Shown: positions 51,075 through 60,940 of the stretch, in pieces
Position numbering within the stretch: position 1 is the stretch's first letter
How the letters are laid out: each line of letters starts with the position of its first letter
Program-made: the position numbers and the translations under genes
Notes under the pieces: model-generated
Database searches by the model: none
What the model saw: only the letters and a program-made list of their open reading frames with translations
What the model was told of the DNA's origin: nothing
NCBI GenBank assembly: GCA_028874215.1
Contig: JAPPLF010000077.1
Location: 1-64,000, forward strand
Length of the DNA: 64,000 nt
Reading direction: 5' to 3'
Origin: Acidobacteriota bacterium
Lineage (GTDB): Bacteria; Acidobacteriota; UBA6911; RPQK01; JAJDTT01

Positions 51075-52868
51075 TCATTCGGGGAAATAGCTCAGGTCCC
51101 AATCTCCCAACTTCCATAGCGGACTGGAAGTCGACTGGGGTTCGGGACGGCCGGCCATGATCCAGCCGGCGATCTCCTCGTGGTGACCCAGACGGGCCAG
51201 TGTCTCCGAGGCCTGGCCCCCGGCAATGGCGGTGTCCCAGAAGGCCAGGTGCTCGACTCCCAGAGAGTAGAGCTGGCCGGCCTTGTTCCGATACTGTGTG
51301 GCGTCCATGTTTCGGGGCATCACATTGAGCGCCAACCGGCAATTTCCCGCACGGGCCATGCGAACCCAATAGGTGACGTCGGCTGCGTCTTCCCAGGCGG
51401 TCTCGAAGCTGAACAGGCTCCGGGCCGAGGTGTAGGGGATCAGGGTGTCCACCAGACCCTCCTGAACCCAACGCTCGATGTCGATCCCGTAAAGCAGGTT
51501 CTCCTCGCGGGAGCCGAACAGCCAGGCGGTGACCGGATACGGTGCGGACCGGCCCTGCTCCCGGGCGGCCTCAGCCAGTTCGGCCTTCAGGTCTTCCATG
51601 AAACCGGTGAGAATCCGGCTCTTGTAGGCCAGCCAGCGTGGATCCGTTTCGGGCAGGCGGCGGGGGTCCACTCCGAACTCCTCCTGGAAGCCCTCCACCA
51701 ACGGCCATTCGTATTCGAGGAAGGGGGGCTGACGGTTGTAGAGAATGGCGACGCCGTCGATGGGATAGCCGGTCATCTCCCGGATCAATGAGAGGACGTA
51801 GCGGCGGGTTTCGGGAAAGGCAAACGACAGGCCGAGGGAGGGCCGTCCGTCGCGGCCCACGCAACGGAGCTCGGGGCACTGGTCGTAGAGTCCGCCGCGA
51901 TTGAATTCGTCGAACGGCGGTGGCCAGTAGAAGGGTCGCCACCCGATTCGGTAACAGGCGTGGAACTCCATGTCGAGTTCGTGAGCGAAGTCTGCGGCGA
52001 CGCGGAAGGGATCGATTCCGCGTTCCACGTAGGCGTCCCAGGCTTCCCGGGCCAGGCGGTCGTAACGCCTGGGGGGATCCTGGGTCCGGATGCCCCGGCC
52101 GTCCCAGACCCGCCCGATGCGCGTCAGGTAGTTGCAGATGTCCCCGTGAGCGCCGTCCCAGTAGATGCGCCCGAAATCGGTGTGCCGGTAGGGTTCCAGT
52201 TGGGCCTGGATGGCCGTCTCTTCGGACCGGCCTCCCGGCATTCGGGAACCCCGGTCGCCGTCGAACCAGGAATCGTTGTAGGCGAACAGCCGGCGATTGG
52301 CCGGGTCGGACCTGTCGAGTTCCAGGTCTTCGACCTCTTCGCCGGTGAGGGGGACCAGCTTGATGTAGGCGAGCCAGACCTTGCCGCTGATGTTGCCGAA
52401 AGCCTGTTCGTCGGGCACCGCCCGCTGGCACGGTTGGCGGAACGCCACGGTCTGGCCTGTCAGGTCGGCGGTCTTCCAGAAGACGTCCTGGATTCTGGGG
52501 CCCTGTTTCTGATCGTCGGCCGGAACGCCCCAGGCGCGTTCGCTGGGGATCGGAAGATAGACGAGCGAGAACGCCGGATCTCCGCTGAGCCGGGCGAAGA
52601 CCCGTTGGGCCTCATAGGGGCGCCATGCGTTGTTGAAGAGGCCGATATAAATGTCGTGCCATCCTTGGACTTCAAGGGGATAGGTGATCTCGGCCGCTTC
52701 CGTCTCCTCGCCGGCGAAAAGGAGCGTTCCGGCGGCCTTGTCGGTCTCGAAGTCCAGCATTCGCCAGGCGAATCGGCGAGCCGTCCGGCTGAGGGCGCTC
52801 GCCGGCTGGCAGCGGTCCAGATCGGCGCGGTAGACAGGTTCGTTCCGCCTCTGGAATCGATCGAGCAT
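51075..52868 (-). CDS. Glycosyl-hydrolase-like TIM-barrel protein (GHL10-like)
   Basis: 597 residues from ATG 52868, with GGAG eight bases upstream. Unlike its neighbours it shows no signal peptide. The N-terminal part is beta-rich (about 1-190). The remainder looks like a glycoside-hydrolase-like TIM barrel of the family-10-like group: GWRPFYWPPPFDEFNRGG, the strand-end motif YPIDGVAILYNRQPPFLEYE, VEGFQEEFGVDPR and HLAFWDTAIAGG. Acidic residues in these strand ends are candidate catalysts, but none is proven. It heads the six-gene minus-strand run and diverges from the metal-ATPase gene. Confidence 0.65.
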   Translation of the reverse strand: MLDRFQRRNEPVYRADLDRCQPASALSRTARRFAWRMLDFETDKAAGTLLFAGEETEAAEITYPLEVQGWHDIYIGLFNNAWRPYEAQRVFARLSGDPAFSLVYLPIPSERAWGVPADDQKQGPRIQDVFWKTADLTGQTVAFRQPCQRAVPDEQAFGNISGKVWLAYIKLVPLTGEEVEDLELDRSDPANRRLFAYNDSWFDGDRGSRMPGGRSEETAIQAQLEPYRHTDFGRIYWDGAHGDICNYLTRIGRVWDGRGIRTQDPPRRYDRLAREAWDAYVERGIDPFRVAADFAHELDMEFHACYRIGWRPFYWPPPFDEFNRGGLYDQCPELRCVGRDGRPSLGLSFAFPETRRYVLSLIREMTGYPIDGVAILYNRQPPFLEYEWPLVEGFQEEFGVDPRRLPETDPRWLAYKSRILTGFMEDLKAELAEAAREQGRSAPYPVTAWLFGSREENLLYGIDIERWVQEGLVDTLIPYTSARSLFSFETAWEDAADVTYWVRMARAGNCRLALNVMPRNMDATQYRNKAGQLYSLGVEHLAFWDTAIAGGQASETLARLGHHEEIAGWIMAGRPEPQSTSSPLWKLGDWDLSYFPE

Positions 52869-52958
52869 GGACTGGGCTCCGGGAGGCGCCGGCTATCGGG
52901 GCTCCCCCTTGGGAGAGGGATTGTATCCAGCCCCGCTCAGGCGGAGCAAGCGGTCTCT

Positions 52959-52986
52959 TTGAACCGGCCAGAACGGCTTGTATAGT
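52959..52986 (+). promoter_or_regulatory. Promoter of the P-type ATPase/SPFH operon, near-leaderless
   Basis: TTGAAC (52959-52964) and TATAGT (52981-52986) are spaced by 16 bases. Transcription would begin near 52993, seven bases before ATG 53000. The GTG at 52985 lies inside the -10 element and so is not a plausible start for this transcript. Confidence 0.6.
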
Positions 52987-52999
52987 GGACGGCGCCATC

Positions 53000-55900
53000 A
53001 TGATCCCTCCCCTCGGACACACGTTCCATCTGGACGAAGGGGCCGTCTTCCGCTGGCGCTTTGCGGGACTGGTCCTGGGCGGCCTGCTCCTGGTGGCCTA
53101 CTGGCAGGAGTGGGTCGTTTCGCCTTTCCCCTGGGACCTGGGCATCGTCCTGACCTTCCTCTACGGGTACAGCACCTTCCACCGGGCGTTCCAGGACGTG
53201 ATCTCCCGGCGGATCAGCGCCGATCAGGCGGTGACTCTGGCGGCTCTGGCCGCCCTCTACGTGGGCGAGTACCTGGCCGCCGCCGAGGTGGTCTACATCA
53301 TGCTCGTGGGCGAGACGTTGGAAGCCTACGCCTCCCAAAGGTTCCACACCGACCTGACGCAGCTTCTCTCGATGTTGCCCCAGGAGGCCCACCGCTGGGG
53401 AGACGACGGCGAGGAACGGGTGGCTCTGGGAGAACTCCGGCCGGAGGACCGGGTGGTGGTCTATCCCGGCGAGAGGGTCCCGGTGGACGGCATCATCCTG
53501 GAAGGGGAGTCGCTCCTGGACGAGAGCTCCATCACGGGCGAGTCGGTGCCCCGGGAGCGGTCGGTCCGCGACCAGGTCTATGCCGGCAGCGTGAACCAGA
53601 CCGCCCGGCTCCTGGTCCGCGCCCGCCAGGTGGGCGAAACCACGGTGTTGAACCGGATCGTGGAGCTGGTGCGCCAGGCCCGGGAGAGCAAGGCTCCCAT
53701 CCAGCGGACCGCGGACCGCTACGCCCAATGGTTCCTGCCCCTGGTGCTGGGAATCGCGGTTCTCTGTTACGTGGTGACGGGCGACTGGATGCGCTCCGTG
53801 GCGATCCTCATCGTGGCCTGTCCCTGCGCCATGGTCCTGGCCACGCCGGCGGCGGTGCTGGCCACCATCAGCGCCCTGGCCCGGAAGGGGATCGTCGTTC
53901 GGGGCGGGGTCCAGATCGAGGAGCTCTCCAAGATCGACTGCTTCGCCTTCGACAAGACCGGCACCCTCACCCGGGGCCGGCCCGAGCTGGTCCGGGTGAT
54001 TCCCTTCGGAGAGTTCCGTCCCGATGCGATCCTGGGTTGGGCGGCCTCCCTGGAATTCTTCTCCGAGCATCTGCTGGCCAAGGCCATTCGGGAGGCGGCC
54101 GAGAGCCGCGGGCTCGACGTCTCGCCCGGGGAGTCGGTCCAAAGGCACGCGGGTCTGGGACTGGAAGGAACGCTGCCTTCCACCGGCGATGAGGCGGGTC
54201 CGACCGTACTCGTCGGCAGCGCCCGCTTCCTGGAACAGCAGGGAGTCGCCCTTTCCAAGCCGGAGCGGGACGTCCTGGATCAGGCCGCGTCCGAAGGAGG
54301 CATCGCCGTCCTGGTGGGATGGGAAGAGCGGGCCGCCGGCGTCCTCCTCCTGCAGGATCAGCCCCGGCAAGAGGCAAGCCGGGCGGTGGCCGAGTTGCGC
54401 GAATTGGGGATCCGGAAGTCTCTGCTCTTGACGGGAGACAACGAAAAGGCGGCCCTTCGGGTGGGCCGGGAGGTGGGGATCGCCCAGGTGCATGCCGGCC
54501 TGCTTCCCGAGGAGAAGCTGGCCCACCTGGAGGATCTCAAGCTCCAGGGCCTCCGGGTGGCCATGGTGGGAGACGGCGTCAACGACTCGCCATCCCTGGC
54601 CGCCGCCCACGTCGGCATCGCCATGGGGGACACGGGGACCGACATCGCAGCCGAAGCGTCGGGGGTGGTTCTGGTCGGGGATGGGGGGCTCGACCGCCTG
54701 AAACCGTTGATCCGCATGAGCCGCCGCGCCGTCAAGACCATTCACGACAACATCTTCTGGTTCGGTCTGGTCTTCAACCTGGCCGCGGTCATGGCCGCCT
54801 TCTGGGGGTACCTGAGCGCCGTGGGCGCCGCCGTTGTCCACCAGGGTTCCTCGTTCCTGGTCCTGATGAATTCCCTCAAGCTGCTGGATCGCCGGCCGTC
54901 GGAGCTTCTTCCCCACCGGCTTCGCCACCGGTTGCACCACCTGGGCCACCGGTACCACCACTTCCGCCACGACGTCCACCATCTCCAGCACGATGTGCTC
55001 CATTGGTTGCACCATCGGAATCCGGCCCATCTCTTCAGGCACTCCCTTCACTGGGCAGGCCATCGCAAAGGGTCCCTGCTGCGTTGGGCCGGGGCGGCTG
55101 CCGTCCTGGCGTACCTGCTCTCCGGGATCCGGATCCTGGCGCCCGAAGAGGTGGGAGTGGTCCAGCGACTGGGCCGGCTGGTCGAGGGTTCATTGGGATC
55201 GGGCCTTCACTACGTGGCGCCTTGGCCCGTGGAGACCCTCCACCGGCTCCGGCCGGCGCAGGTACGCACCGTGGAGCTGGGTTTCCGGATCTCCGACTCG
55301 GCGGCCGAGGTCGAAGGGGGGCCGGCCGCCTACGAGTGGAACATTCAGCATCGGCAGGGACGCTATCTGCGGAGGGAAGACGAGGCGCTCATGCTCACGG
55401 GAGACGAGTACCTGGTGGAGGTGAACGCGGTCGTCCACTACACCATCGCCGACTTCCATCAATACCTCTTCGCCAGCTCGAGCCTGGAATCCACCTTGCA
55501 GTTCCTGTGCGAGAGCGCCTTGCGCCAGGTGGCGGCCACCATGGAGCTGGACCGGATTCTGGCCCTCGACCGGCGCACCATCGAGAGCGCGGCGATGGAA
55601 ATGGTCCGATCGGAGGCGGAACGTCTGGGCTTGGGCGTTCGAGTCCAGGCCTTCCAGCTCCAGGACGTTCATCCCGCGCTGGAGGTGGTGGGGGCGTTCC
55701 GGGACGTGGCCAGCGCCTTGGAGCAGAAGAGCCGCATGATCAACGAGGCTCATGCCTACGCCAACGAGCGGGTCCCCATCGCGGCGGGTGAGGCCCAGGG
55801 GCGCCAGATCCAGGCCCGGGCCTATGCGGTCTCCCGGGTCCAACGTTCCGAAGGCGAGTCCCGCCGCTTCGATCTGCGCTACGGCGCGTATCGCCTGTCG

Positions 55901-56071
55901 CCCGAGACGACCCGGATCCGTGTCTACCTGGAGGCGGTCGAGGCGGGTTTGGCAGGGAAAAAGAAGTACATCCTGGACCAGAGCTCGGGACGCCGGAAGA
56001 TGCTGCTGTTCCGTAACTCGGTGTTCAATTTGGGAAACCTGGAGAAGGCGGTCTCCGCCAGTGGGAGATGA
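53000..56071 (+). CDS. P1B-type metal ATPase fused through a His-rich linker to an HflK-type SPFH protein
   Basis: 1023 residues from ATG 53000. Residues 1-637 are a complete P1B ATPase: four N-terminal membrane segments, TGES (179-182), Cys274-Pro-Cys276 in TM6, phosphorylation site Asp318 in DKTGTLT, hinge GDGVND (524-529), and two last membrane segments with VVHQGSSFLVLMNS. The usual SEHP motif reads SEHLL (355-359). There is no N-terminal HMA domain. Residues 639-688 hold 18 histidines in HH and HxxH patterns. A new membrane segment (about 693-713) and a full HflK-like SPFH domain follow (EEVGVVQRLGRLVEGSLGSGLHYVAP is its opening), ending in the HflK-type helical region with MINEAHAYANERVPIAAGEAQG-like sequence. 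The reading frame is continuous with no sign of frameshift. Probable role: metal export linked to an SPFH membrane assembly. Confidence 0.88.
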   Translation: MIPPLGHTFHLDEGAVFRWRFAGLVLGGLLLVAYWQEWVVSPFPWDLGIVLTFLYGYSTFHRAFQDVISRRISADQAVTLAALAALYVGEYLAAAEVVYIMLVGETLEAYASQRFHTDLTQLLSMLPQEAHRWGDDGEERVALGELRPEDRVVVYPGERVPVDGIILEGESLLDESSITGESVPRERSVRDQVYAGSVNQTARLLVRARQVGETTVLNRIVELVRQARESKAPIQRTADRYAQWFLPLVLGIAVLCYVVTGDWMRSVAILIVACPCAMVLATPAAVLATISALARKGIVVRGGVQIEELSKIDCFAFDKTGTLTRGRPELVRVIPFGEFRPDAILGWAASLEFFSEHLLAKAIREAAESRGLDVSPGESVQRHAGLGLEGTLPSTGDEAGPTVLVGSARFLEQQGVALSKPERDVLDQAASEGGIAVLVGWEERAAGVLLLQDQPRQEASRAVAELRELGIRKSLLLTGDNEKAALRVGREVGIAQVHAGLLPEEKLAHLEDLKLQGLRVAMVGDGVNDSPSLAAAHVGIAMGDTGTDIAAEASGVVLVGDGGLDRLKPLIRMSRRAVKTIHDNIFWFGLVFNLAAVMAAFWGYLSAVGAAVVHQGSSFLVLMNSLKLLDRRPSELLPHRLRHRLHHLGHRYHHFRHDVHHLQHDVLHWLHHRNPAHLFRHSLHWAGHRKGSLLRWAGAAAVLAYLLSGIRILAPEEVGVVQRLGRLVEGSLGSGLHYVAPWPVETLHRLRPAQVRTVELGFRISDSAAEVEGGPAAYEWNIQHRQGRYLRREDEALMLTGDEYLVEVNAVVHYTIADFHQYLFASSSLESTLQFLCESALRQVAATMELDRILALDRRTIESAAMEMVRSEAERLGLGVRVQAFQLQDVHPALEVVGAFRDVASALEQKSRMINEAHAYANERVPIAAGEAQGRQIQARAYAVSRVQRSEGESRRFDLRYGAYRLSPETTRIRVYLEAVEAGLAGKKKYILDQSSGRRKMLLFRNSVFNLGNLEKAVSASGR

Positions 56072-56078
56072 CCCGGAG

Positions 56079-57026
56079 ATGCACTACCCAGTGAAGGCGC
56101 CCGCGGACGGCGAGAAAAGCAGGCAATCGGTCGGAACCGGAAGGGTGATCCGAAGCAAGGTCTTCTGGATCGTGGTCCTGTTGATTCTGGCGTACCGGAG
56201 CCTGTTCACGGTGAACGAGGAGGAGATGGTCCTGGTGACCCAGTTCGGACGCCCCGTTGCCGAGTACAAGGAGGCGGGACTCCGGTTCAAATGGTTCTTC
56301 CAGGGGCTCACGCGCATCGACAAACGGTTGCATCTCTACAATCCCCGGCCTTCCGAGTATCTGACCCGGGACAAGAAGAATCTCCTGGTGGAGACCTACG
56401 TGATCTGGCAGGTCCAGGAGCCGCTCCGGTATCTGCGGGCCGTCGGGGATCGCTCCGGGGCCGAGATGCGCCTGCACGACATCGTGTGGTCGTCGGTCTC
56501 CGCCGATCTGGGCCGGACCGAGCTCTCCGAGCTGGTGGCCACGGACCCGGAACAGGTGCGCCTGGAACCCTTGATGGAGAAACTCACGCGCGAGTGCGAT
56601 GAAGTCTCCCGCCAACGTTACGGAATTCGGATCGCGTCGGTGGACGTGAAGCGGATCAACCTCCCCACCCAGAACCGGGAGAGCGTCTATGCCCGGATGC
56701 GGGCGGAACGGGACCGCATCGCCAAGAAATACCGGGCTGAAGGAGAGGAGGAGGCCCGCAAGATCCGGGCCGAGGCGGACCGCCAGGCCGAGGAACTGCT
56801 GTCGGCAGCCTACAAGCAGACGGAGATCATCCGGGGCGAGGCGGACGCGCAGGCCGCCCGGATCTACGGAAGGGCCTATTCGCGGGATCCCGAGTTCTAC
56901 CAGATGGTCAGGACGCTGGAAGCGTACCAGCGGATCCTGGACGACAAGACCACCGCGGTCCTCTCGGCCGACTCGGAGTTGCTCAAGTTGCTGACCGAAG
57001 GGCGGAACGGAAGGTTGGCCCGGTGA
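56079..57026 (+). CDS. HflC-like SPFH-domain membrane protein
   Basis: 315 residues from ATG 56079, seven bases after the fusion gene; a GTG at 56061 overlapping that gene is an alternative. A single N-terminal anchor (VFWIVVLLILAYRSLF) is followed by an SPFH domain opening with TVNEEEMVLVTQFGRPV. The long helix expected of HflC is present: ERDRIAKKYRAEGEEEARKI, then EADAQAARIYGRAYSRDPEFY and the conserved TLEAYQRIL. HflC and HflK form a cage around FtsH in E. coli; no ftsH is seen here, and the partner in this operon is more likely the ATPase-HflK fusion. The next gene overlaps it by GTGA. Confidence 0.87.
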   Translation: MHYPVKAPADGEKSRQSVGTGRVIRSKVFWIVVLLILAYRSLFTVNEEEMVLVTQFGRPVAEYKEAGLRFKWFFQGLTRIDKRLHLYNPRPSEYLTRDKKNLLVETYVIWQVQEPLRYLRAVGDRSGAEMRLHDIVWSSVSADLGRTELSELVATDPEQVRLEPLMEKLTRECDEVSRQRYGIRIASVDVKRINLPTQNRESVYARMRAERDRIAKKYRAEGEEEARKIRAEADRQAEELLSAAYKQTEIIRGEADAQAARIYGRAYSRDPEFYQMVRTLEAYQRILDDKTTAVLSADSELLKLLTEGRNGRLAR

Positions 57027-57946
57027 GAAACTGGTTGCGGCACAACAGCCTGCTGCTGTCGTCCGTGTTGGTCGCCCTGTACGTGGCGTCCGGGATCTAC
57101 TATGTCCCCACCGATCGGCAGGCGGTGAAGTTGCGGTTGGGCCGGCTGCTTCCGGAGCGGATCCAACCGGGTCTGCAGTACGCGGTTCCGTACCCTCTGG
57201 AAGAGGTGATCCTGTTGAAGACGAATGAGGCCCAGCGTCTCACCGTCGGGGGCACCGATCTGGACCGGGCCTTGGGAGTCCGGGTCCTGACGGAGGACGA
57301 CTCCCTGTTGAGCGGCGACCAGAACCTGGTCCAGTTCCGGGCCTCCATTCAGTACTACATCCAGGATCCGGGACGGTATCTGTATCGGTCCCGCGATCTT
57401 CCCCGGGTCCTGGAGGTCCTGCTCTATCGTTCCCTCTCTCGAGCCGTGGCGATCCGGGGGGTCGACGACGTGCTCACCACGGGCCGCATCGAGATCCAGA
57501 ATCGTGTCCGGGAGGATCTCCAGCAGGAGGCGGACCGCTTGGCGTTGGGCGTGGCCGTAACCGCCCTGGCCCTGGAACAGGTCCGTCCTCCCGAACAGGT
57601 CCGCGATGCCTTCCTGGAGGTGGCCAACGCCAGGGAGGACCGGAACCGCATCGTGCAGGAGGCCCGGGGATACGCCAGCGAATTGTTGCCTCGAACCCGC
57701 GGCCAGGCTCAGGAAAACCTCCAGCAGGCCCGAATCTACGGCCGGGAGGTGGTGGACCGGTCCCAGGGCGAGTCGCAGCATTTCCTGAGCCTGTGGGGAG
57801 AATACCGGCGCCATCCCACCGTCACCACGGCGCGCCTCTTCCTGGAGGCCATGGAGGAGATCCTGCCCCGCACCCGCAAGGTCATTTTGGACGATGCCGG
57901 AAGCCGGCAGGGCCTGGACCTGGATATCTTCGCCGTGGAGGAGTGA
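57023..57946 (+). CDS. HflK-like SPFH-domain membrane protein
   Basis: 307 residues from GTG 57023, overlapping the stop of the previous gene (GTGA). It has one N-terminal membrane segment (LLLSSVLVALYVASGIYYV) and an SPFH domain opening with PTDRQAVKLRLGRLLPERIQ. The HflK-type helical region contains AFLEVANAREDRNRIVQEA and the ending RLFLEAMEEILPRTRKVILD. It is a second HflK-like subunit beside the one fused to the ATPase, so the operon encodes three different SPFH chains in K-C-K order. Tight coupling suggests fixed stoichiometry in one complex. Confidence 0.86.
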   Translation: MRNWLRHNSLLLSSVLVALYVASGIYYVPTDRQAVKLRLGRLLPERIQPGLQYAVPYPLEEVILLKTNEAQRLTVGGTDLDRALGVRVLTEDDSLLSGDQNLVQFRASIQYYIQDPGRYLYRSRDLPRVLEVLLYRSLSRAVAIRGVDDVLTTGRIEIQNRVREDLQQEADRLALGVAVTALALEQVRPPEQVRDAFLEVANAREDRNRIVQEARGYASELLPRTRGQAQENLQQARIYGREVVDRSQGESQHFLSLWGEYRRHPTVTTARLFLEAMEEILPRTRKVILDDAGSRQGLDLDIFAVEE

Positions 57947-57982
57947 GGGAAGCCGGCGAAGCGGACCCTCGGGGAGACGGAG

Positions 57983-58456
57983 ATGGAACCCAGGAAATGG
58001 TTCTCCCTGCTGGCGATCCTCGGCTGTTTCCTCTATTTCGTCACACGCGAGACCCCCGTCAAGGACACGGAAAGGGAAGAGAATCCGGACGACGTCCTGA
58101 TCGCCATGGTCCAGGCCATGGAGCGCGGTGACGTCGAGGCGCTCAAGGAGTGCTTCGGCGGAGACCTGAGGAGGCGCCTGGAAGACCTGCTGGCGCGGGA
58201 CTCGGCGCCCTGGCTGTCGGAGTGGCTCCGGAGGCGCGGAAGCGCCGTCAAGGGTCTGGCCATTCTGGGCCAGGAGGAACTGAGTCCGGATCAGGTCCGC
58301 GTCTTGACCGAGACGGTCTACAACGACCGCAACACCCGCCAGTCCTTCCTGGTGGAGCGGGAGTTCGGATCCTGGAGGGTGACCCAGAGCGATTTCGAGA
58401 TGGTCAGCGACTGGGAAAACGAATTCGGGAAGTCGATTCGGGATGTGGGGCGTTAG
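57983..58456 (+). CDS. Small membrane-anchored protein of the SPFH operon, unknown function
   Basis: 157 residues, with GGGGAG (57971-57976) six bases before the ATG. An N-terminal anchor (WFSLLAILGCFLYFV) is followed by a soluble domain of about 125 residues. Its pattern DDVLIAMVQAMERGDVEALKE, then LTETVYNDRNTRQSFLVERE and GSWRVTQ, resembles small NTF2-like or DUF4878-type lipoprotein domains. The resemblance is of layout only. The position 37 bases after the second HflK-like gene makes it a likely subunit or accessory of the ATPase/SPFH assembly. Confidence 0.72.
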   Translation: MEPRKWFSLLAILGCFLYFVTRETPVKDTEREENPDDVLIAMVQAMERGDVEALKECFGGDLRRRLEDLLARDSAPWLSEWLRRRGSAVKGLAILGQEELSPDQVRVLTETVYNDRNTRQSFLVEREFGSWRVTQSDFEMVSDWENEFGKSIRDVGR

Positions 58457-58470
58457 TGATCTTAAAGATA

Positions 58471-58508
58471 TGTGTGGAAGCATCGCCGGGCCTCGCGATG
58501 TGAACACT
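58471..58508. terminator. Hairpin between the SPFH operon and recQ
   Basis: CATCGC (58481-58486) and GCGATG (58495-58500) form a perfect six-base stem, extended with mismatches by GTGT (58472-58475) and ACAC (58504-58507). There is no T-run, so it is only a possible end of the operon or a protein-binding palindrome. Confidence 0.35.
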
Positions 58509-58531
58509 TCGGTGCTTGATCTGGTTTCGAC

Positions 58532-60940
<2,409 letters not shown>

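Follow-up and report, generated by a model that had tools for sequence, protein, structure and literature searches.

The window, a 64,000-nucleotide stretch of DNA from an Acidobacteriota bacterium, encodes an operon that we consider rather likely to build a periplasmic assembly of three SPFH paralogues around a transporter of zinc or another transition metal, probably for conditions of metal scarcity. The joining of a transporter to an HflK-type scaffold appears not to have been described so far, and the genes concerned, mostly annotated as protease regulators, probably specify a dedicated machine for scarce zinc.

The first gene of the operon (52985..56071, forward strand, as for all features given here) encodes 1028 amino acids in an uninterrupted frame with no stop, composed of a P1B-type ATPase, a linker and an HflK-like SPFH protein. 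The ATPase core (53228..54883, residues 82-633) contains TGES at residue 184, the CPC of TM6 at 279, DKTGT at 323, SEHLLA at 360 and GDGVND at 529, and is matched by NCBIfam TIGR01525 over residues 82-633 with 544 bits against a cut-off of 346 (E 4.6e-163). It is a P1B ATPase by its TGES, CPx in TM6, DKTGT and GDGxND motifs and by this score, and both Foldseek (4bbj, 7r0g, 4umw) and sequence matches are to P1B ATPases. Like CopA and ZntA it has the full catalytic core and the TM6 CPC; unlike them it lacks an N-terminal metal-binding domain, carries a C-terminal SPFH chain and possesses an unusual TM8 motif, HQxxSxxVxxNSxRLL, of which the conserved HQxxS..N does not fit exactly any of the classical P1B-1/2/4 sets in a motif survey of TM7-8. 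The HflK-like half (55070..56068) comprises TM9, the SPFH domain, a coiled coil and a C-terminal strand region. It scores 176.9 bits against the TIGR01933 cut-off of 159.4 over residues 715-1006, and E. coli HflK structures match residues 801-1026 (E 9e-28). The AF2 model of the fusion, of moderate confidence (mean pLDDT 72, pTM 0.53), has helices at 695-712 and 899-971 in this half. A His-rich linker (54890..55084, residues 636-700) with 18 His in 65 amino acids connects the final TM helix of the ATPase to that of the SPFH part. It is restricted to the genus of the window, the linkers of the remaining P1B fusions containing 0-3 His, and it was therefore rejected as a general metal handover element.

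Seven nucleotides past the stop of the fusion begins, with ATG, an HflC-like SPFH gene (56079..57026, 315 aa; TIGR01932 198.5 bits, cut-off 134.4), whose stop overlaps by 4 nt a second HflK-like gene (57023..57946, 307 aa; TIGR01933 196.4 bits, cut-off 159.4). All three SPFH chains of the window operon thus exceed the curated NCBIfam HflK/HflC cut-offs. The fourth gene (57983..58456, 157 aa) encodes a small membrane-anchored protein with an NTF2-like domain (AF2 pLDDT 79; Foldseek matches to NTF2-like folds, e.g. 4ovm and 3fka, E about 1e-4). Among 26 P1B-HflK operons examined, from Acidobacteriota, Armatimonadota, Verrucomicrobiota, Kiritimatiellota and others, the order fusion-HflC-HflK is kept in all 26 and the small NTF2-like gene in 25. 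A preliminary description of this DNA had proposed that one frame joins a complete ATPase to a complete HflK-like protein, and that overlapping HflC-like and HflK-like genes and a small anchored protein follow; frame, motifs and NCBIfam matches confirm the former, and the latter holds as a conserved four-gene operon.

In the mechanism that we propose, one HflK-type subunit would carry the P1B ATPase covalently, N-terminal to its own membrane helix. The ATPase has eight TM helices and hence a cytoplasmic C-terminus, and the ninth helix that follows would consequently put the SPFH domain on the periplasmic side, where that of HflK also lies. The fusion chain would co-assemble with the HflC-like and HflK-like chains of the operon into a periplasmic ring or dome, with several pumps under one roof and their outer mouths toward a secluded space, comparable to HflK/HflC around FtsH; the NTF2-like anchored protein would be an accessory on the same side. 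Metal might be concentrated or handed over at the periplasmic mouth of the pump, and the role would be to cope with a shortage of zinc, or perhaps of copper or other transition metals, rather than bulk detoxification. We infer co-assembly, enclosure, periplasmic orientation, substrate and transport direction, the cage purely by homology. The E. coli HflK-HflC enclosure of FtsH consists of 24 alternating chains (PMC12048511). The trio chains of the window operon, each above its NCBIfam cut-off, are homologues of HflK and HflC, which suggests a similar enclosure here, but there are three SPFH chains instead of two, these belong to lineages of their own, there is no ftsH, and what they accompany is a metal transporter, to which one of them is fused. 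A conserved operon of an SPFH gene and a membrane partner is also known from the NfeD-SPFH operons, which involve SPFH1, 2 and 5, HflK/C (SPFH3) being without such a partner in that survey (PMC2636767); those are other SPFH subfamilies with another partner and no transporter.

The same trio occurs with other transporters. Its first gene has four arrangements: P1B-HflK, SO_0444-type permease-HflK, CDF-HflK, and a 6-TM domain fused to HflK and followed by a separate P1B ATPase gene (here termed T4). We tabulated 61 operons (26 P1B, 6 SO_0444, 12 CDF and 17 T4), and the order fusion-HflC-HflK is found in 61/61. Elsewhere in the window genome lies a second operon, whose HflK is joined to an SO_0444-type permease, the CDF-HflK type occurs also on a conjugative plasmid, and the fused CDFs retain the HxxxD/HxxxD pair in TM2 and TM5, like active zinc CDFs. 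In the SPFH tree the canonical HflK and HflC clades do not include the trio chains, which group separately by operon type; the F, the C and the K chains make up a clade apiece in the P1B type (support 97, 96 and 81) and likewise in the T4 type (95, 99 and 94). In the ATPase tree the fused P1B members form their own clade and the T4 ATPases another (support 100), which correctly predicted a 62nd operon of the same order (L214). No SPFH genes were found near five P1B ATPases from outside both SPFH-linked clades. A plasmid search with the whole fusion as query returned ordinary P1B ATPases only, and AntA-like plasmid ATPases were rejected as relatives of the system, having no SPFH genes beside them. 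The preliminary description had assigned three different SPFH chains to a metal pump, which is supported; as a whole its interpretation stands in part, and it overlooked that different types of pump can take the same place. We tentatively propose a modular class of machines from many phyla, in which a three-paralogue SPFH dome is combined, covalently or by operon, with one of several unrelated metal transporters (a P1B ATPase, a CDF, an SO_0444 permease, or a 6-TM domain that resembles a transporter and is accompanied by a P1B ATPase of its own gene) to form a periplasmic compartment for scarce zinc, and which would include the PaFlo5-7/HmtA operon of P. aeruginosa.

That P. aeruginosa cluster, PA2439-PA2438-PA2437-PA2436-PA2435(HmtA)-PA2434, contains PaFlo5-6-7 and the HmtA ATPase; PA2437-PA2439 and HmtA are described in PMC4542158. 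Zur binds the PA2439-PA2435 cluster in EMSA (PMC8531726), the genes are induced 5.6- to 14-fold in a znuA mutant (PMC4542158), their proteins increase under zinc depletion (PMC11761036), and they belong to the Zur regulon under NAC (PMC9431628). Like the window and T4 operons, the cluster holds three SPFH genes and a P1B ATPase gene in one operon, and T4 operons of Rhizobium, Paraburkholderia and Burkholderia plasmids have the same gene order; unlike in the window fusion, HmtA is encoded by a separate gene. The likeness was drawn from published descriptions, the sequences compared being those of the proteobacterial plasmid operons in its stead. The SPFH genes have been interpreted as FtsH modulators (PMC9431628) and their products treated as flotillin-like, without analysis of operon partners (PMC13086221); in the literature on the cluster we found no proposal of a physical link between the SPFH proteins and HmtA. 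Zinc uptake genes accompany other operon types as well. SO_0444-type operons co-occur with znuABC or znuD genes: znuA, znuC and znuB lie in the operon (L103), AztA/ZnuC and AztB/ZnuB overlap the trio (L101), or ZnuD is immediately upstream (L102). A Paraburkholderia T4 operon adjoins a zinc ABC operon and a gene for a GTP-binding protein. Near the window operon and the other P1B fusions no zinc genes were detected, nor, upstream, any Zur-like sites with three pattern sets, which perhaps do not match the Acidobacteriota Zur box, and substrate and regulation of the window operon are therefore carried over from its relatives.

The preliminary description took the pump for an exporter, which is doubtful, since the context of related operons, where it is informative, points to zinc uptake and HmtA is reported as an importer, import itself having been questioned (PMC10393844). 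In the alternative of a detoxifying exporter caged by SPFH proteins, the dome would gather the ions pumped out to the periplasmic side and either protect the periplasm from them or route them farther out. This would agree with the standard P1B motifs of the fusion, with the usual export function of P1B ATPases, CDFs and SO_0444 permeases, and with an Aquibium plasmid whose CDF-type operon has a heavy-metal ATPase and Nramp in its vicinity. We nevertheless regard this as unlikely: zinc uptake genes lie within or beside the operons of relatives, the P. aeruginosa relative is under Zur and zinc-starvation regulation, and the scanned neighbours include neither metal-resistance genes nor metal-sensing repressors; nor did the scan find a constant regulator. 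Somewhat more doubtful still is a metal-loading station, in which ions are moved under scarcity into the enclosed periplasmic space and metallate client proteins there. Exporter-type pumps and control by zinc starvation would then be compatible, and periplasmic PpiC-type isomerase genes adjoin CDF-type operons (L164, L172 and the Aquibium plasmid) while the P1B type has the NTF2-like anchored partner; however, no client protein is constantly encoded, and the isomerases occur in the CDF type only.

It is improbable that the SPFH trio governs FtsH turnover of the metal pump, as has been assumed in print for PA2437-PA2439. HflKC-FtsH complexes are known (PMC12048511) and the trio scores above the curated HflK/HflC cut-offs, but ftsH was absent near the trio operons at all 41 operon loci tested, and in the window genome its one copy is on a different contig. 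The downstream SPFH genes thus do not co-occur with ftsH in place of the ATPase, but ftsH is frequently distant from canonical hflKC too. The window genome also carries a canonical HflK-HflC pair separate from the trio, whose proteins lie in other clades, and an accidental fusion with the FtsH partner of the cell was rejected on these grounds.

To our knowledge SPFH proteins are universal, and the contents of their rings are known in few cases. Under the favoured reading of a transporter housed by its own SPFH assembly, the covalent fusion names the SPFH client, and does so repeatedly, for three or more families of transporter that are unrelated to one another; because the client is fixed by fusion, the idea that SPFH proteins house membrane machines becomes directly testable beyond FtsH. 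Many genes annotated just as FtsH protease activity modulator HflK or protease modulator HflC would gain a function, and the Zur-regulated PA2437-PA2439 genes of P. aeruginosa would be reinterpreted, their operon with HmtA being currently understood as one of FtsH modulators and a solitary importer. A secluded periplasmic compartment is a possible reason for the importer behaviour of HmtA, a member of a normally exporting family.

That the fusion is an assembly or frameshift artefact joining two genes deserves virtually no credence, as nothing was found in its favour and single frames of 930-1135 aa occur in many independent assemblies from several phyla. The window operon is 97/94/89% conserved in three congeners and about 48% in a different family of its class, the fusion being a single frame in each and nowhere split into two genes. 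Its likely start is the in-frame ATG at 53000, also named in the preliminary description, rather than the GTG at 52985, because the latter overlaps a -10-like TATAGT. This hexamer belongs to a promoter-like element, TTGAAC-16-TATAGT (52959..52986), the sole such match in 52800-58700, where shuffled sequence gives a mean of 0.5 against the 1 observed; the TTGAAC/TATAGT pair is at the same position in two congeners.

The single reading frame that the preliminary description had claimed for a P1B ATPase and an HflK-like chain does exist: it extends over 52985-56071 (+), is stop-free and encodes 1028 aa. A complete P1B ATPase occupies residues 82-633 (NCBIfam TIGR01525, E 4.6e-163) and an HflK chain residues 715-1006 of the same protein (TIGR01933, 176.9 bits; cut-off 159.4 bits), with Pfam in accord on both halves. 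The ATPase part carries the catalytic motifs TGES (residue 184), CPC (279), DKTGT (323) and GDGVND (529). Two SPFH genes come next, as also described, one HflC-like (56079-57026; 198.5 bits) and one HflK-like (57023-57946; 196.4 bits), and then a small fourth gene (57983-58456) whose product is predicted to comprise a single anchor helix and an NTF2-like domain. The spacing of 7 nt, a 4-nt overlap and 36 nt fits one operon. The sole promoter-like element within 52800-58700 lies at 52959-52986 and is preserved in two congeners; because of its position, the originally proposed ATG at 53000 is a likelier start than the GTG at 52985. The neighboring genes, a divergent 597-aa gene (51075-52868, -) and a downstream RecQ-like helicase (58532-60940, +), are also present in the congener locus L036 and show no metal link.

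An assembly error that splits into two genes in relatives can be dismissed, as the fusion is a single frame in three congeners, at 97, 94 and 89% identity, and likewise in a different family of its class (48%). Across 84,980 scanned species, the fusion adjoined by HflC and HflK turned up in Acidobacteria, Bryobacterales, Terriglobia, Armatimonadota, Abditibacteriales and Zipacnadia records, and also in Verrucomicrobia, Kiritimatiellota and one single-cell genome; a Lentisphaeria record stops within the SPFH half. Surveys of 396 Acidobacteriota and 289 Verrucomicrobiota-group genomes yielded further fusions, including those of 14 genomes of one acidobacterial genus, in 4 of which gene order was read. 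The conserved gene order expected from the window holds in all fully read P1B-type operons (26/26), and the fourth gene is present in 25 of them, the lone exception stopping at a contig edge. Among plasmid proteins, the window's ATPase is closest (about 40%) to P-type ATPases of Enterobacter AntR/arsenic plasmid islands (L112 7893-9839 and L113 7893-9827), which are without SPFH genes.

The SPFH trio is also joined to other transporters. Acidobacteriota and Rokubacteria have an SO_0444-type (ArsP_1) permease joined to HflK in one chain, and a CDF (Cation_efflux)-HflK fusion occurs in Acidobacteriota, Verrucomicrobiota/Kiritimatiellota, Kouleothrix aurantiaca (Chloroflexota) and on a conjugative plasmid of Aquibium oceanicum. 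The fused CDFs have invariant HxxxD pairs in TM2 and TM5, which in the CDF family are the ligands of the transported zinc. A further layout, here termed T4, occurs in Verrucomicrobiota and on Rhizobium, Paraburkholderia and Burkholderia plasmids: an N-terminal 6-TM domain is fused to SPFH, and HflC, HflK and a P1B ATPase as a gene of its own come after it. The 6-TM domain belongs to no Pfam family; hhalign links it distantly to the fused CDF (probability 94, E 1e-7), whose metal residues it lacks. The order fusion-HflC-HflK was found in 61/61 tabulated operons, two T4 rows having the third SPFH gene labeled as the fused chain owing to a long upstream frame.

The window's own genome encodes a second transporter-SPFH operon (L009 4225-10337; 68224-74336, minus strand, of contig C31), in which an SO_0444-HflK fusion cut by the contig end is followed by HflC, HflK and genes for a periplasmic binding protein and for a small membrane protein whose tail is His-rich. 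One Kiritimatiellota genome (G401) has P1B fusion, T4 and CDF fusion operons (L061, L171, L172). A Rokubacteria SO_0444-HflK operon is preceded by an additional HflC-like gene (L065 2681-3631), giving four SPFH genes, and PpiC-type peptidyl-prolyl isomerase genes adjoin CDF-HflK operons of different phyla (L164 435-2504, L172 188-2143, L108 10456-12150).

The alternative that the trio co-occurs with ftsH fares poorly: no FtsH homolog was found in any of 41 operon loci, and the single ftsH of the window's genome is on a different contig. In a fast tree of 147 SPFH domains, some deep forks of which are weak, the P1B-type chains form three clades (support 97, 96 and 81) and the T4 chains three more (95, 99 and 94), all separate from canonical HflK and HflC. 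About 10 kb downstream of the window operon, the genome has an ordinary HflK-HflC pair (L010 7638-9700; 67638-69700 of the window's contig), which falls in the canonical clades. T4 ATPases form one clade (100) and fused P1Bs another (90); a T4-clade ATPase of unread context then proved to lie in a T4 operon, and no SPFH gene was found near five P1B ATPases outside these clades. By lineage and gene context, the trio is dedicated to its transporter operons. Genome comparison shows, at the level of sequence, a covalent pump-SPFH chain, a constant three-chain operon, transporter exchange and independence from ftsH linkage.

The ATPase half resembles CopA and ZntA structures, and E. coli HflK is a sequence match to the HflK half. 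In an AlphaFold2 model of the fusion made with 20 homologs (pLDDT 72), the P1B membrane helices are followed by a linker helix at 644-674 and a ninth helix at 695-712, after which come SPFH strands and a coiled coil at 899-971. Because P1B ATPases have their ends in the cytoplasm and HflK is single-pass with a periplasmic SPFH domain (PMC2636767, PMC12048511), the fusion is topologically consistent, and SPFH domain and pump mouth would share one membrane side. From HflK/HflC structures, the three SPFH chains may form a periplasmic ring or dome with the pumps as built-in feet. Such an assembly would extend the known enclosure of membrane machines by SPFH proteins, and it may amount to a transport machine of a categorically new kind. 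A full-text literature search that took in only a minority of subscription papers, so that silence is not proof, gave no account of SPFH-transporter fusions or of a transporter-SPFH complex.

Beyond the pump itself, the window holds no clue to the metal. Among relatives, SO_0444-type operons run on into genes resembling znuA, znuC and znuB (L103), overlap genes of the AztA/ZnuC and AztB/ZnuB kind (L101) or are preceded by a ZnuD-like receptor gene (L102), and a Paraburkholderia T4 operon has as neighbors a zinc ABC operon and genes for a GTP-binding protein and PCu(A)C. The Pseudomonas aeruginosa PA2439-PA2435 cluster has the same composition as T4 operons; it is unfused and has been published piecemeal, its SPFH genes being read as FtsH modulators. 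Its promoter is bound by Zur (PMC8531726), its expression in a znuA mutant is 5.6- to 14-fold higher (PMC4542158) and its proteins are more abundant under zinc depletion (PMC11761036); PA2437-PA2439, within the Zur regulon (PMC9431628), are PaFlo5-7 (PMC13086221). HmtA is a reported Zn/Cu importer, for which reviewers want confirmation (PMC10393844). Taken together, the zinc context of relatives and the P. aeruginosa cluster make metal scarcity a better guess than detoxification for the purpose of the operon; the metal handled may be zinc or similar, and the aim economy, whether through import, through export or through metal loading of client proteins within the putative dome.

The motif YEWNxQHRxGRY (55322-55364; fusion residues 783-794), in a loop left unplaced by AlphaFold2, is nearly invariant across all P1B-fused SPFH chains and is not in the other two SPFH chains of the window operon.
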